A stretch of 64,000 nucleotides of DNA from Rhizobium sp. ZPR4 (GTDB taxonomy: Bacteria; Pseudomonadota; Alphaproteobacteria; Rhizobiales; Rhizobiaceae): the NCBI RefSeq assembly GCF_040215725.1, contig NZ_CP157967.1:434001-498000 (forward strand), read 5' to 3'. A model generated the notes under the pieces. The model searched no databases, was not told where the DNA came from, and was given only the letters and a program-made list of their open reading frames with translations. Position numbers and translations under genes: made by a program. The stretch's first letter is position 1. Each line of letters opens with the position of its first letter. Shown piece after piece: positions 3,105 through 34,965 of the stretch.

Positions 3105-4364
3105 ATGATGATGGGTAGAGCCAAACTCACGATTATCCCGCCGGGCAAGCCTTTGACCGGACGCGCCATGCCGCCGGGATCGAAGTCGATCACCAACCGC
3201 GCGCTGCTGCTCGCAGGCCTTGCCAAGGGCACGAGCCGGCTGACAGGCGCGCTGAAGAGCGACGACACCCGCTATATGGCCGAGGCGCTGCGTGCCATGG
3301 GCGTTGTCATCGACGAACCCGACGACACCACTTTCATCGTAACCGGCAGCGGCAAGCTGCAGGCGCCGGCTGCCCCACTTTTCCTCGGCAATGCCGGCAC
3401 GGCGACGCGCTTCCTGACGGCTGCCGCAGCACTGGTCGACGGCAAGGTCATCGTCGACGGCGATGCCCATATGCGCAAGCGGCCGATCGGCCCGCTGGTC
3501 GACGCGCTCCGCTCGCTCGGCGTCGATGCTTCGGCCGAAACTGGCTGCCCGCCGATAACGGTCAACGGCACCGGCCGTTTCGAGGCAAGCCGCGTGCAGA
3601 TCGATGGCGGCCTTTCGAGCCAATATGTCTCGGCGCTGTTGATGATGGCCGCCGGCGGCGATCGCGCTGTCGATGTCGAGCTGCTCGGCGAACATATCGG
3701 CGCTCTCGGCTATATCGACCTGACCGTTGCCGCCATGCGCGCTTTCGGAGCGAGGGTTGAGCGCGTGAGCCCCGTCGCCTGGCGTGTCGAGCCCACCGGC
3801 TACCATGCCGCCGACTTCCTGATCGAGCCGGATGCCTCTGCGGCGACCTATCTCTGGGCTGCCGAAGTGCTTGGTGGCGGCAAGATCGATCTCGGCACGC
3901 CGGCAGAGCAGTTCTCGCAGCCGGATGCGAAAGCCTATGACCTGATTTCGAAGTTCCCGCACCTGCCCGCCGTCATTGACGGCTCGCAGATGCAGGACGC
4001 CATCCCGACGCTTGCCGTCCTCGCCGCCTTCAACGAGACGCCGGTACGCTTCGTCGGCATCGAAAACCTCCGCGTCAAGGAGTGCGACCGTATCCGCGCG
4101 CTGTCGAGCGGCCTGTCGCGCATCGTTCCGAACCTCGGCACGGAAGAGGGTGACGATCTGATCGTGGCATCCGATCCGGGTCTTGCCGGCAAAGTGCTGC
4201 CGGCGGAGATCGACAGCTTCGCCGATCACCGCATCGCCATGAGCTTTGCGCTCGCCGGCCTGAAGATCGGCGGCATTACCATTCTCGACCCCGATTGCGT
4301 CGCCAAGACCTTCCCGTCCTATTGGAACGTGCTGGCTTCGCTCGGAGTCGCTTACGAAGACTGA
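3105..4364 (+). CDS. aroA: 3-phosphoshikimate 1-carboxyvinyltransferase (EPSP synthase), class I-like
   Basis: Sixth step of the shikimate pathway: joins shikimate-3-phosphate and phosphoenolpyruvate to give EPSP. The 419 residues contain PGSKSITNR (Lys27, Ser28), LGNAGTATRFL at 94-104, SSQYVSALL, RVKECDR and DHRIAMSF, and the ending ILDPDCVAKTFPSYW. These motifs resemble the E. coli-type enzyme (LGNAGTAMRPL), with Phe in place of the Pro, more than the GNAATGCR form known from Agrobacterium CP4 and the usual rhizobial AroA. Three consecutive ATGs (3105, 3108, 3111) make the start ambiguous. It sits between lemA and its expected DUF2207 partner. Enzyme class is firm; whether this is a second copy is inference. 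Confidence 0.92.
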   Translation: MMMGRAKLTIIPPGKPLTGRAMPPGSKSITNRALLLAGLAKGTSRLTGALKSDDTRYMAEALRAMGVVIDEPDDTTFIVTGSGKLQAPAAPLFLGNAGTATRFLTAAAALVDGKVIVDGDAHMRKRPIGPLVDALRSLGVDASAETGCPPITVNGTGRFEASRVQIDGGLSSQYVSALLMMAAGGDRAVDVELLGEHIGALGYIDLTVAAMRAFGARVERVSPVAWRVEPTGYHAADFLIEPDASAATYLWAAEVLGGGKIDLGTPAEQFSQPDAKAYDLISKFPHLPAVIDGSQMQDAIPTLAVLAAFNETPVRFVGIENLRVKECDRIRALSSGLSRIVPNLGTEEGDDLIVASDPGLAGKVLPAEIDSFADHRIAMSFALAGLKIGGITILDPDCVAKTFPSYWNVLASLGVAYED

Positions 4365-4453
4365 CGCTCCGCCATCCCAAGGGAGGCTGAGCGCAGGCAT
4401 GTTCCTGACGTGAAGCGGCGCCGGCAACGGCGTCGCGGCCATCCTTTGGGGGA

Positions 4454-6391
4454 GTGATGACACGGCTTTGCGGGTTCTTCCTGGCTCTGTGCCTGCTGCT
4501 TTGCGCAACGGCAGTGACGGCAGCCGAGCTCATCACCAACTTCGATCAGGCAATCGCCCTCCATCGCGACGGTTCCATGCGCGTCGTCGAGACGATCTCC
4601 GTCAATGCCGAGGGCCAAAACATCCGCCGCGGCATCTTCCGGGATTTCCCGCTGACGATGACCGATGCCAACGACCGCGAGATCGAGGTGGATTTCAAGG
4701 TCGTCTCCGTTGAGCGCGACGGGCAGCGCGAGGATTGGCACAGCGAGCGCATCAGCGGCGGCGAGCGCATCTATATCGGCAACGCCGACAGAAGCCTCAA
4801 CCCAGGTCCGCACACATTCCGCCTCACCTACGACACCAATCGTCAGATGCGCTATTTCGGCGATCATGACGAGCTTTACTGGAACGTGACAGGCAATGGC
4901 TGGCTGTTCCCGATCATCAATGCGAAGGCAACCGTCACCTTGCCGGATGGCGTGCAGCCGCAGCAGCTTGCTTTCTTCACCGGGCCGCTCGGCGCCAGTG
5001 GAAAAAATGCAAGCGCCAATGCCCAGGGCAACATCGTCACATTTATAACGACACGGCCGCTGGCGAACGCCGAAGGTCTGACGATCGCCATCAAGCTCGC
5101 AAAGGGAGCGATCACGCCACCCAGCTCAAGCCAGCAATGGGGCTGGTTCCTGCGCGATCATCTCGACACCGCCATCGCCATTGGCGGGCTGATCCTGCTG
5201 TTCGTCTATTACATGCGCAGCTGGATCGCCGTCGGCCGCGATCCTCCAGCCGGCGTGATGGTGCCACGTTGGGATGCGCCTGACGGCATCTCGCCGGCGC
5301 TGGTCAACTATATCGACAACAAGGGTTTCGGCAGTTCCGGCTGGACGGCATTCTCGGCCACGGCGATCGATCTCGCCGTGCGCGGCTATGTCATTCTGGA
5401 CGATCTGAAGGGAAAGGTGGTCATCCGTCCCTCGGGCAAGGCGGGCGGCGATCTCGGCGGCGGCGACAAGGTGCTCATGCAGGCCGTCGGACCATTCTCT
5501 CCGCTCGTCATCGACAAGGAAAACGGCGAGGCGGTGCAGCGGCTGGGTGCGAAGTTCCGCAGCGCGATCGAGCGCGATCATCGCGGCGAATACTACAAGG
5601 CCAATTCGCTCTATGTCATCGCCGGTATCGCGCTGTCGATCCTCGTCCTGGCCTCGATCATCATCTTCGGGCGACTGCATGAAAATGTGGTGCCGCTGAT
5701 CCTCATGCCCGGCTTCCTGTCGATCTTCGTGACGATCTTTACCAGCATCATCGGCCGGAGATTCCGGCGCCATAATGCCAGTCTCGGCCAGCGAATTATT
5801 TCCGTTCTGATCTGCGCCTTCTTCGGCTTCATCCTGGTATCCGCTATCGTCAACGGTTTTGCCGCCGCGGTCGTGCCGCTATGGGAGGCGGGCTTGCTGC
5901 CGCTGGTGGCGGGCATCGTCGGCATTTTCGCGCTCAACGTCGTCTTCTATTTCCTGATGGGTGCGCCGACGCCGCTCGGGCGCAAGATGATGGATGGCAT
6001 CGCCGGCCTCAGGCAATATCTGACACTCGCTGAACGCGACCGCATGAACATGCAGGGCGCGCCGCAAATGTCGCCGCAGCACTTCGAAACGCTGCTGCCC
6101 TATGCGGTCGCTCTTGGCGTTGAAAAGCCATGGTCGAGCGCCTTCGAGACCTGGCTCGCCACGGCCGCGGGTGCCGCCGCCGCGGCTTACGCGCCGATCT
6201 GGTATTCCGGCGATTTCCGTCCGGGCAATATCGGCGGCACGATCGGCGATTTCTCCTCTTCGATGGCGTCGACTATAGCCTCGACCATTCCCGCCCCGGC
6301 ATCGAGCTCCTCCTCCGCCTTTGGCGGTGGCGGCGGAGGCGGCGGCTCCTCCGGCGGTGGTGGAGGCGGTGGCGGCGGAGGCGGATGGTAA
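4454..6391 (+). CDS. DUF2207 membrane protein with Gly-rich tail
   Basis: A 645-residue membrane protein. A signal peptide (residues 1-24, ending VTAAE) precedes an extracytoplasmic DUF2207 domain ([39 protein letters not shown]) of about 220 residues. A membrane helix follows near 238-256, then a cytoplasmic stretch and further helices near 385-405, 410-430, 450-470 and 480-500. The protein ends with an Ala/Ser-rich stretch and a run of Ser and Gly finishing in Trp, a tail commonly seen in this family. LemA and DUF2207 proteins often pair, so it probably works with the lemA product in the envelope. Role unknown. Confidence 0.88.
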
Positions 6392-32122: not shown

Positions 32123-32339
32123 TAACGGCTCTGTCGCATTCAGGATAAAGCGTCATCATTCGGGTGCGGATGGGCTGCATGTCCGCATTTTGATGTAGCC
32201 GCATAAGCGATTGAATTGTCTTTCGATAATGCCTCTTCACGGAGCCATCTTGGCGTTCCGTTTCGCCTGTCGTCAATTTCGGAGCCGATGTCGCATTGCA
32301 GCGCAGCGGCTGGCGGAGCCGAGAGCTATGATGCCATCA

Positions 32340-32518
32340 ATCTCAAGGTGCCGTCTGCTAGGGAGACGGAGAATTGGGAAGCCGGTCAAAATCCGGCGCT
32401 GCCCCCGCAACGGTGGTGGAGTGAGGCATGGCGAATAAAGCCACTGGGTCGATCGGCCTGGGAAGGTGCCATGGGGTTCTGGAAACAGGGCCGCTCCAGA
32501 GCCCGGAAACCAGCCTTG
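32340..32518 (+). promoter_or_regulatory. Cobalamin (B12) riboswitch
   Basis: The conserved core is visible in order: AAGGTGCC, a variable hairpin, GGGAAGCCGGTCAAAATCC, the invariant GCTGCCCCCGCAAC, AGCCACTGG, GGGAAGGTGCC and the closing GGAAACCAGCC. Together these define the adenosylcobalamin-class aptamer (Rfam Cobalamin). It stands before the Rieske oxygenase gene on the + strand. High cobalamin would be expected to reduce expression. The absolute ends are estimates. Confidence 0.93.
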
Positions 32519-32541
32519 GGCGCATAAGGTTTACTGACCGC

Positions 32542-32604
32542 GGCGGGTGGTCGGGACATTGCTTTTGGCCGCTCCCAACCGGCCACGCATGTCCTTTGCC
32601 CGCC
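32542..32604 (+). promoter_or_regulatory. Probable riboswitch expression platform (long stem-loop)
   Basis: Nested arms after the B12 aptamer: GGCGGG with CCCGCC (outer, 32542-32547 and 32599-32604), GGACAT with ATGTCC, and GGCCG with CGGCC around the loop. The outer stem ends about ten bases before the AAGGATAGG ribosome site of the oxygenase gene. It has no T-run, so it is more likely a translational switch than a terminator. This is inference from base pairing. Confidence 0.6.
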
Positions 32605-32629
32605 TCCTGGTACTGCTAAGGATAGGCAA

Positions 32630-33874
32630 ATGGACATCGGCAGCAAAGTTCTGCGGCAATTGAAGAACCACCGGACAGGCTTGAGCCTGGAGCAACCCTT
32701 CTACACCGATCCGGACTACTTCAAGCTCGACATGGAGACGATCTACTATCGTGACTGGCTGTTCATCGGCCATGATTGCGAAGTGCCGCGCGCGGGCAAC
32801 TACTTCACCGTCCAGATCGGCGACTATCCCGTCGTCATCGTCCGCGGCCGCGATCAGGTCATCCGCGCCTTCCACAATAGCTGTCGCCATCGCGGCTCGC
32901 GGGTCTGCACGACCGAGCGCGGCTCCTCGGCAAAACTCGTCTGCCCCTATCACCAGTGGACCTATGAGCTCGATGGCTCGCTGCTTTTCGCCCGTCAGAT
33001 GGCCGAGGATTTCGACAAGAGCCAGCATTCGCTGAAGCCGGTTCATTGCGAAAGCGTCGGCGGCTACATCTTCATCTGCCTGGCACAGAACGCTCCGGAT
33101 TTCGCCTCGGTCCGCGCCTCGATCGAGCCTTATATGGCGCCGCACCGCATCAGCGAAGCCAAGGTCGCCTTCCAGAGCACCATCATCGAGAAGGGCAACT
33201 GGAAGCTCGTCTGGGAAAACAACCGCGAATGCTATCATTGCGCGGCCAATCACCCCGAGCTTTGCCGCACTTTCCCGGAAGCGCCGACCGTGACCGGCGT
33301 ACAGGGTGCGCTGAACGATCCCGTCATCGCCGAGCACTGGCAACGCTGCGAAGCCGCAGGCCTGCCGAGCGAATTCAAGCTCTCGCCGGACGGACAGTTC
33401 CGCACGGCCCGCATGCCGCTGATCGAAGGTGCGGAAAGCTACACCATGTCCGGCCAGAATGCCGTCAGGCGGCCGCTCTCGCCCGACGTGACGATCAACG
33501 GCATCGGCACCATGCTATTGTTCCATTACCCGACGACGTGGAACCACATCCTCGGCGACCACGCGATCTCCTTCCGCGTCCTGCCGATCAGCGCCGAGGA
33601 AACAGCCGTCACCACGAAGTGGCTTGTTCACAAGGATGCCGTGGAAGGCGTCGACTACAATCTCGAAGAGCTGACCCACGTCTGGACCGAAACCAACGAC
33701 CAGGACCGCCGTATCGTCGAGGAAAATGCCTTCGGCATCCGCTCGCCGGCCTATGAACCAGGTCCCTATTCGGAAATCCATGAAGGTGGCGTCATGCAGT
33801 TCGTCGAATGGTACACGACTTTCATGATCAACCGGCTGCAGGGCGACCAGGCCAAGCTGTCGGCGGTTGCCTGA
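32630..33874 (+). CDS. Rieske oxygenase, glycine-betaine demethylase type (GbcA-like)
   Basis: Oxygenase component of a two-protein system, 414 residues. The Rieske cluster ligands are Cys85-x-His87 (CRHRGS) and Cys105-x2-His108 (CPYHQW); the mononuclear iron site is NRECYHCAANH with His203 and His208. The NNRECYHC signature and partner layout match quaternary-amine demethylases such as GbcA (glycine betaine) and stachydrine demethylase. If so, it removes a methyl as formaldehyde using O2. The reductase follows two bases downstream. A B12 riboswitch controls it. Family firm; substrate inferred. Confidence 0.88.
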   Translation: MDIGSKVLRQLKNHRTGLSLEQPFYTDPDYFKLDMETIYYRDWLFIGHDCEVPRAGNYFTVQIGDYPVVIVRGRDQVIRAFHNSCRHRGSRVCTTERGSSAKLVCPYHQWTYELDGSLLFARQMAEDFDKSQHSLKPVHCESVGGYIFICLAQNAPDFASVRASIEPYMAPHRISEAKVAFQSTIIEKGNWKLVWENNRECYHCAANHPELCRTFPEAPTVTGVQGALNDPVIAEHWQRCEAAGLPSEFKLSPDGQFRTARMPLIEGAESYTMSGQNAVRRPLSPDVTINGIGTMLLFHYPTTWNHILGDHAISFRVLPISAEETAVTTKWLVHKDAVEGVDYNLEELTHVWTETNDQDRRIVEENAFGIRSPAYEPGPYSEIHEGGVMQFVEWYTTFMINRLQGDQAKLSAVA

Positions 33875-33876
33875 GC

Positions 33877-34965
33877 ATGAACATGGCCGTCTCTCTTTCG
33901 CATCGCCACCTCGACCAGATGCAGCCCTGGAATGACAGGCAGCATGTGCTCGAATGTCTCTCGGTGACACCCGAAGCACCCGATGTGATGACCTTCACAT
34001 TCGGGTCCGACAAGGACAACTGGTTCCGCTATCTGCCGGGCCAGTTCGTGACGCTGGAGCTGCCGACGGCTCCGGAGCCCGTCATGCGCACCTATACGCT
34101 ATCATCGACGCCGTCGCGGCCCTTCTCTGTCGCGGTGACGGTGAAGGCGCAGAAGGACAGCGTCGGCACGCGCTGGATGTTCGAGAACCTGAAGCCCGGC
34201 ATGCGCATCAAGGCGTTCGGCCCGCTCGGCGATTTCAGCCATATCCGCCATCCCGGCGAGAAGTACCTCTTCGTTTCCGCCGGCTCCGGCATCACGCCGA
34301 TGATGTCGATGACGCGCTACATGTCCGATATCGCACCGCTGTCGGATATCACCTTCGTCAACTGTTCTCGCAGCCCGGCCGATATCATCTTCCGCTCCGA
34401 GCTCGAATATCTTGCGCGCTTTATGCCGAACCTCAATCTCGGCTTCATCGTCGAAGGCTGTGGCCGCACCGATCTCTGGTCCGGCTTGAAGGGCCGCATC
34501 GATAAAGCAAAGATCGGCCTGCTGGCGCCCGATTTCATGGATCGGACGATCTTCTGCTGCGGCCCTGAGGTCTTCATGGATGCCGTGCGCTCCATGTTGG
34601 AAGCTCATGGCTTCGACATGTCGCGCTACCATCAGGAAAGCTTCCAGCCGGCCAATGCGGCAACGCCGCTTGCCGAAGTTTCCGACGATGCCTCCGGCGA
34701 GGCTGCCACCACGATCCGCTTCACCATGGCCGGCAAGGATGTCGTCTGTGCGGCGGGGCAGACCGTGCTGCAGGCGGCGCGCGGTGCCGGCGTGCGCATC
34801 GGCGCGGCCTGCGAATCCGGCCTCTGCGGCACATGCCGGGTGATGAAACTCTCGGGCGAAGTCGAGATGAGCCACAATGGCGGCATTCTCGATGACGAGA
34901 TCGACGAGGGCTATATCCTCGCCTGCTGCTCGCGCCCGAAGACGGACGTTCAGATCGAGGCCTGA
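33877..34965 (+). CDS. NADH-dependent oxygenase reductase with C-terminal ferredoxin (GbcB-like)
   Basis: Electron donor to the oxygenase encoded directly upstream. The 362 residues form an FNR-type FAD domain (RTYTLSSTPSRP), an NAD domain (SAGSGITPMMSM and CCGPEVFMDAVRSML) and a C-terminal plant-type [2Fe-2S] ferredoxin with CESGLCGTC and a distal Cys in ACCSRP. The FAD-NAD-ferredoxin order matches GbcB. The start is read at 33877, two bases after the oxygenase stop, with a further in-frame ATG at 33883. The two genes form an operon under the B12 riboswitch. Confidence 0.92.
   Translation: MNMAVSLSHRHLDQMQPWNDRQHVLECLSVTPEAPDVMTFTFGSDKDNWFRYLPGQFVTLELPTAPEPVMRTYTLSSTPSRPFSVAVTVKAQKDSVGTRWMFENLKPGMRIKAFGPLGDFSHIRHPGEKYLFVSAGSGITPMMSMTRYMSDIAPLSDITFVNCSRSPADIIFRSELEYLARFMPNLNLGFIVEGCGRTDLWSGLKGRIDKAKIGLLAPDFMDRTIFCCGPEVFMDAVRSMLEAHGFDMSRYHQESFQPANAATPLAEVSDDASGEAATTIRFTMAGKDVVCAAGQTVLQAARGAGVRIGAACESGLCGTCRVMKLSGEVEMSHNGGILDDEIDEGYILACCSRPKTDVQIEA

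Follow-up and report, generated by a model that had tools for sequence, protein, structure and literature searches.

B12-independent isozymes under the control of cobalamin (B12) riboswitches are exemplified by the metE/metH and nrd systems. Isozymes of B12-dependent enzymes form a category of the B12-riboswitch regulon in PMC3766115, whose main text mentions neither betaine nor oxygenase nor formaldehyde. Glycine betaine monooxygenase GbcAB of Pseudomonas and Chromohalobacter (NF058607, NF058606) is a two-component system of a Rieske oxygenase and a FAD/2Fe-2S reductase; enzymes of this type release the methyl group as formaldehyde, according to PMC12478193. The same paper reports that glycine betaine use by the aerobe Ruegeria pomeroyi depends on MtgC and MtgD, as shown by mutants, and, citing earlier work, that Sinorhizobium meliloti possesses an unexplained second glycine betaine system; the word “riboswitch” appears in that paper only in the reference list. 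Here we describe a gene pair of Rhizobium sp. ZPR4, located on a 64 kb stretch of contig NZ_CP157967.1 (the window), which encodes a GbcAB-like oxygenase and reductase and is preceded by a cobalamin riboswitch. We consider it likely that the pair acts as a B12-independent fallback betaine demethylase, standing in for the corrinoid-dependent MttB/MtgB-MtgC-MtgD route.

Riboswitch, oxygenase/reductase pair and putative counterpart

The locus comprises the following features.

32329..32532, plus strand: cobalamin riboswitch aptamer, full length (RF00174, Rfam 108.4 bits)
32534..32554, plus strand: P13-type hairpin, seen when the 3' part of the leader is folded; its loop region GCGGCGGG is complementary to the invariant CCCCCGC of the aptamer and could pair with it
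32591..32635, plus strand: predicted expression platform closing the start codon, in which GTCCTTTGCC (32591-32600) would pair with GGCAAATGGAC (32625-32635)
32618-32622, plus strand: ribosome-binding AAGGA, within the predicted expression platform
32630..33874, plus strand: Rieske oxygenase subunit of the GbcA/stachydrine-demethylase superfamily, 414 amino acids, with Rieske and Ring_hydroxyl_A domains
33877..34965, plus strand: ferredoxin-NAD(P)H reductase subunit, GbcB-like, 362 amino acids, with FAD_binding_6, NAD_binding_1 and Fer2 domains

In an Rfam covariance scan, RF00174 matched the leader over model positions 1-189 of 189 with an E value of 3.2e-26, far above its gathering cut-off of 31.5 bits, and was the single match within the window at gathering thresholds. 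Such a search had been proposed in a preliminary description of the locus, and its outcome bears out the B12 riboswitch with full cobalamin core recognized there; the aptamer extends 11 bases upstream of position 32340, the start assumed at that time. The gene layout of a glycine betaine demethylase, which had been noted as well, is found as described, the Rieske/Ring_hydroxyl_A gene being followed by the FAD_binding_6/NAD_binding_1/Fer2 gene.

The hairpin at 32534..32554, which we take to be the regulatory L5-L13 kissing loop, appears when the 3' part of the leader is folded and is missing from the lowest-energy fold of the entire leader. The complementary loop of an L5-L13-type contact in RF00174 is present downstream of the aptamer, its pairing being predicted, and 104 of 110 leaders have a GCGGnGGG loop motif no more than 80 nt from the end of the aptamer. 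Among 20 aligned leaders, the aptamer core, the loop complementary to CCCCCGC and the AGGA core of the ribosome-binding site are conserved, the columns of the kissing-loop motif being invariant. The pairing that would close the start codon occurs in both folds, the energies of which are mildly better than those of shuffled sequences (z of -2.12 for the 3' part and -1.48 for the whole leader). Pairing of the ribosome-binding site over 95 leaders averaged 0.83, versus 0.63 with shuffled spacers, an excess which is suggestive only, because these leaders are related. The leader fits a translational OFF switch, a direction and a mode of action which we infer from the predicted folds.

The oxygenase has the Rieske CxH...CxxH motif and the iron-site residues of the GbcA type. 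Residues C85, H87, C105, H108, E200, H203, H208 and D359, presumably the ligands of the cluster and the iron, are identical in 193 of 193 aligned rows. The closest named orthologs are those of Rhizobium rhizogenes 17-2069-2c (100%) and R. tropici SARCC-755 (99%). The layout is preserved in S. meliloti, a strain of which carries the riboswitch-led pair (oxygenase 74.9% identity, riboswitch 100.3 bits), and in Ruegeria sp. TM1040 (58.7% identity, 109.7 bits). The product of the TM1040 gene, which is likewise led by a cobalamin riboswitch, is exactly the chain of the solved structure 3n0q, listed in its database entry as a putative ring-hydroxylating dioxygenase without further role. At two other loci (L261, G413:C28; L257, G506:C53), a riboswitch-led oxygenase gene is followed by other short open reading frames, and a GbcB-like reductase was not found within the surrounding 13-20 kb.

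A putative B12-dependent counterpart is encoded in the same genome, which contains three MttB genes. An Mtg-type locus on contig C1 near 1.78 Mb comprises genes for MttB (760 bits), a corrinoid protein carrying both B12-binding domains, DUF1638, a MetF-like protein and a pterin-binding methyltransferase, and has the same components as the glycine betaine demethylation system of R. pomeroyi (PMC12478193). The MttB protein of this locus scored 411 bits against the solved glycine betaine methyltransferase 9yce and is very close to 4yyc (1051 bits). The MttB/MtgBCD route is most likely the counterpart of the oxygenase pair; the MttB paralogs may differ in substrate, however, which counts against a simple assignment of any one of them to this part. 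In another genome (G572:C23, L250, 2227-4566), a riboswitch-led gene for a TonB-dependent receptor separates mttB from mtgC within the mtg locus.

Candidate substrates

Glycine betaine is the best guess and the most likely substrate of the window pair, with proline betaine and others as possibilities. The top NCBIfam models for the two proteins are by far those of the glycine betaine monooxygenase subunits GbcA (NF058607) and GbcB (NF058606). The genomic context of near homologs points the same way: a 75%-identical ortholog (G463) is part of a cluster with genes for a GlxA-type regulator, a glycine-betaine-type ABC transporter, a DMGDH-like FAD/GCV_T protein and a PurU-like protein, and the Paracoccus versutus homolog (68.7%) lies beside genes for BCCT, FdhA, a DMGDH-like FAD/GCV_T oxidoreductase, FolD and PurU. 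A solved carnitine monooxygenase, CntA, reached only 128.7 bits, with the best stretch covering residues 20-211, about half of the chain, so that this identity was ruled out.

Several scores weigh against glycine betaine. Both subunits miss the curated cut-offs (525.6 versus 670 bits for GbcA, 381.3 versus 500 bits for GbcB), and the chains 4qup and 3vca, which we take to be stachydrine demethylase, are about equally close to the oxygenase, matching nearly the whole chain with 535 bits; with 3n0q of strain TM1040 the match is of similar extent, at 573 bits. This riboswitch-led protein of TM1040 is itself nearer still to the stachydrine-type chains (668 bits), and the window pair may therefore act on another betaine. 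The genome also contains a second GbcA-like Rieske oxygenase gene (C3:226291-227496, L015; 44% identity, 406.7 bits on the GbcA model), the product of which could likewise act on a betaine; no riboswitch was found in its 4.2 kb locus.

It is therefore possible, though we think it the less probable case, that the pair demethylates a different quaternary amine, for example proline betaine (stachydrine) or a compound related to carnitine, its B12-dependent partner then being the MttB paralog for that substrate and the logic of the switch staying the same; besides the scores, the presence of three MttB paralogs would accommodate this. The glycine-betaine-type catabolic clusters of the near homologs and the low carnitine monooxygenase score argue against it, as does a riboswitch-led homolog from a different family (L112), which with 648 bits on the GbcA model comes near the cut-off. 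Since this GbcA-near protein and the stachydrine-near protein of strain TM1040 are both riboswitch-led, riboswitch control, as judged by such similarities, is a recurrent trait in several branches of the demethylase superfamily.

Co-distribution of riboswitch and MttB

The riboswitch was scored upstream of the oxygenase gene with a profile derived from 22 leaders of this kind together with two more of the genome's riboswitches (more than 40 bits taken as presence), which superseded a regular-expression scan for the core, and MttB was scored by PF06253. Three samples were used: a set of 80 loci, 79 of them scorable (L036, with no upstream sequence, was left out); a Rhizobiaceae sample of 93 genomes, obtained from the 94 of 247 genomes with an oxygenase match of E 1e-190 or better by setting aside the window's own genome; and 12 genomes outside the family.

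80-locus set (n = 79): both 38; riboswitch only 0; MttB only 5; neither 36
Rhizobiaceae sample (n = 93): both 63; riboswitch only 3; MttB only 2; neither 25
Outside the family (n = 12): both 5; MttB only 7

MttB was thus present in 38/38, 63/66 and 5/5 of the riboswitch-bearing genomes, and absent from 36/41, 25/27 and 0/7 of those without the riboswitch, respectively. Fisher tests, which ignore ancestry, gave p values of about 3e-17 in both the 80-locus set and the Rhizobiaceae sample; the counts of these two sets were not summed, because they overlap in at least three genomes (L053/G494, L095/G395, L097/G466). Within the Rhizobiaceae, the riboswitch is mostly lost where the putative counterpart is lost. 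Against a strict coupling stand the genomes with MttB and no riboswitch (2 of 93 and 5 of 79) and three of the 93 with a riboswitch and no MttB, all from one genus (Rfam 56-61 bits); moreover, all seven riboswitch-free genomes outside the family retain MttB, and the link is therefore not universal.

Absence of the riboswitch was confirmed by Rfam in all 25 genomes of the family sample lacking both traits, in the MttB-only loci L071, L086, L091, L103, L187, L195, L040, L108 and L109, and in L041, L044, L050, L058, L089 and L094; the remaining riboswitch-negative loci of the 80-locus set, L113-L117 and most riboswitch-positive loci were scored by the profile alone. L017, which scores 55.7 on the profile and does not reach the Rfam cut-off, has no MttB score and entered no table. 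Decay of the element is visible in two Rhizobium loci (L040, L041), where only the 3' part of the aptamer is left before the oxygenase gene; one of the genomes lacks MttB, and the other has a divergent copy and a fragment.

The association could reflect shared ancestry only, riboswitch and MttB having disappeared jointly, and for unconnected reasons, from a small number of clades while the riboswitch of the oxygenase serves some other B12-related need. The states do cluster on the tree, the large groups with both and with neither requiring 12 and 9 changes versus shuffled means of 30.6 and 22.8, and the independent contrasts on the protein trees are few and miss significance, which counts against our interpretation: six pairs in the tree of 106 rows (mean 4.3 concordant, 0 opposite, median p 0.125) and eight in that of 181 rows (mean 5.4 concordant, 0 opposite, median p 0.0625). 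The DNA gene tree of 180 rows, which is better resolved and from which L109 and L112 were dropped as long branches, provides 11 independent pairs on supported branches, with means of 7.2 concordant, 0.0 opposite and 3.8 undecided and a median sign-test p of 0.0156 (range 0.0039-0.0625); rows alike in both sequence and state had been merged before the 181-row and 180-row trees were built. Three genera (g1, g280, g340) contain both states and are concordant in each. MetH is present in 31 of 31 tested genomes lacking both riboswitch and MttB (in 68 of 79 overall, the 11 absences all falling in MttB-bearing genomes), and cobalamin riboswitches occur elsewhere in 58 of 58 genomes tested, including the same 31. 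Because MetH and other B12 riboswitches persist, the loss of riboswitch and MttB is specific, and a general loss of B12 use was ruled out as its cause. On this evidence, we regard ancestry as an unlikely sole explanation.

That the pair provides methionine or methyl groups when lack of B12 disables MetH, for instance by formaldehyde entering the C1 metabolism of folate, seems improbable to us. The metH gene lies immediately upstream of the riboswitch-led oxygenase gene in L160 (G470) and L175 (G573) and within the same stretch in L170 (G542), L245 (G408) and L210 (G553), which speaks for this idea; however, it adjoins the oxygenase gene in few of the searched loci and was not found in the neighborhood of the pair in the window, the 31 genomes just mentioned keep MetH with the riboswitch absent, and methyl-folate derived from formaldehyde would still require methionine synthase. 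A link to the oxygen-dependent methionine synthase MesD/MesX was also dropped: PMC7857596, in its accessible part, names neither a Rieske enzyme nor a riboswitch, and no search for MesD was made. A role of the oxygenase in B12 synthesis, by acting on a corrinoid or the lower ligand of one in the manner of BluB in dimethylbenzimidazole formation, is scarcely credible and was dropped, for although B12 synthesis genes are often riboswitch-led, no cobalamin genes were recognized by eye in the part of the window between 28 and 40 kb, homologs reside in betaine clusters, and the matching family models are betaine demethylases.

Formaldehyde and a possible B12-gated switch

The reading as a B12-independent betaine demethylase implies a source of formaldehyde, the by-product of Rieske demethylation, which is oxidized by the glutathione-independent formaldehyde dehydrogenase FdhA. 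The fdhA gene of the window's genome (TIGR02819, 719.7 bits versus a cut-off of 637) has a B12 riboswitch of its own. It is one of six cobalamin riboswitches which Rfam places above the cut-off in this genome, with a further one just below; the targets are two ABC transporters, nrdE and its neighbors, the oxygenase, fdhA and the cobN region, the target of the weak seventh site being uncertain. The riboswitch-led nrdE belongs to class Ib (TIGR04170), with nrdI and nrdF identified by eye as neighbors; class Ib NrdE is part of a B12-independent ribonucleotide reductase.

Directly comparable loci of P. versutus and of an Agrobacterium plasmid have fdhA behind a homologous pair of oxygenase and reductase genes, and no riboswitch was found at these oxygenase/fdhA loci. 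Because fdhA follows the pair in relatives and both are riboswitch-led in the window's genome, these are apparently two functionally linked genes, on contigs C1 and C2, each under its own riboswitch. At an ortholog limit of E 1e-150 or better, fdhA was detected in only 7 of 50 riboswitch-bearing genomes versus 18 of 30 without the riboswitch, which speaks against a general part for it: since most of the riboswitch-bearing genomes tested have no fdhA ortholog at this limit, the fdhA arm is not general, and genomes of this kind must deal with formaldehyde in some other way. Where fdhA is present, Rfam detected a cobalamin riboswitch before it in five of the seven riboswitch-bearing genomes, in addition to the window's genome, and in one of 13 genomes lacking the oxygenase riboswitch (Rhizobium leguminosarum Norway, a weak 43.5 bits). 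Five further fdhA loci of the latter group were negative by the riboswitch profile, and profile remnants of 13.7 and 10.3 bits precede fdhA in two other such genomes. This pattern matches a loss of B12 control in step with that of the oxygenase.

Some arrangements of cobalamin riboswitches were encountered in passing. In L259 (G523:C15) and L260 (G472:C1), riboswitch-led fdhA lies behind class Ib nrd genes (identified by eye), so that B12-independent functions are clustered there; G523 has one more riboswitch about 2.7 kb upstream of that of fdhA, on the nrd side. L262 contains two divergent back-to-back cobalamin riboswitches at approximately 4347-4784 (G413:C41:37335-37789), between genes which by eye are of the cobalamin-synthesis type, and G463:C9:16722-17604 contains two in the same orientation, spaced by about 460 bases.

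In the mechanism we propose, cobalamin would bind to the riboswitch, the bound state probably hiding the ribosome-binding site and turning the oxygenase/reductase pair off. When B12 is low, the pair would be produced and would use O2 and NAD(P)H to remove one methyl group from a quaternary amine, glycine betaine being the most likely one, yielding dimethylglycine and formaldehyde, the latter presumably handled in the window's genome by FdhA under the second B12 riboswitch. With ample B12, the corrinoid route, consisting of MttB/MtgB, the corrinoid protein MtgC, the methyltransferase MtgD and MetF2, would carry out the demethylation and pass the methyl group to tetrahydrofolate. The earlier suggestion of a B12-free substitute for some step gains support, as MttB/MtgBCD, a B12-dependent counterpart which the preliminary description had left unnamed, fits by co-distribution, and the riboswitch-led fdhA fits as well. 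Its other suggestion, a supply of methyl groups, is not supported, given that the GbcAB type releases the methyl group as formaldehyde (PMC12478193) and the corrinoid route is the one that keeps it on folate.

The system resembles B12-independent isozymes, of which the riboswitch-led nrdE of this genome looks like a case, in that a B12-free enzyme is riboswitch-led in genomes also encoding a B12-dependent counterpart. It differs from them in that a non-homologous route would be swapped, with formaldehyde instead of methyl-folate as the C1 product and a detoxifying enzyme under a second riboswitch. From GbcAB it is set apart by its B12 riboswitch and by scores under both curated cut-offs. MtgBCD, as portrayed in PMC12478193, probably performs the same task, the conversion of glycine betaine to dimethylglycine; unlike the window pair, it is B12-dependent, keeps the methyl group on tetrahydrofolate and consists of unrelated proteins.

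The pairing of riboswitch and oxygenase may itself have been noted before: surveys of B12 elements from 2003 reportedly list an oxygenase/ferredoxin pair, ardX-frdX, under a B12 element in alphaproteobacteria, reportedly with no function assigned. A literature search on these two names gave no title on the subject among the matches listed, and no description of the riboswitch/oxygenase or betaine link was recognized in the literature searched, most subscription papers lying outside the search. Within this literature, both the proposed function and the evidence from co-distribution appear new.

Taken further, betaine catabolism in alphaproteobacteria would be a B12-gated two-way switch, with MtgBCD in use when B12 is ample and the Rieske pair, in some lineages together with a B12-repressed formaldehyde dehydrogenase, when it is scarce; we lean towards this generalization with some reserve. 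The unexplained second glycine betaine system of S. meliloti, mentioned in PMC12478193, may be part of such a switch.

A concrete job is thereby proposed for a type of B12-riboswitch-led oxygenase of which the TM1040 member already has a solved structure (3n0q). If the proposal is true, a catabolic route joins the functions swapped by B12 riboswitches, and in soil and symbiotic bacteria the supply of B12 decides whether the methyl groups of betaines become folate-bound or are released as formaldehyde. Since betaines are abundant plant and marine osmolytes, the flow of carbon and nitrogen from them would then depend on a vitamin.

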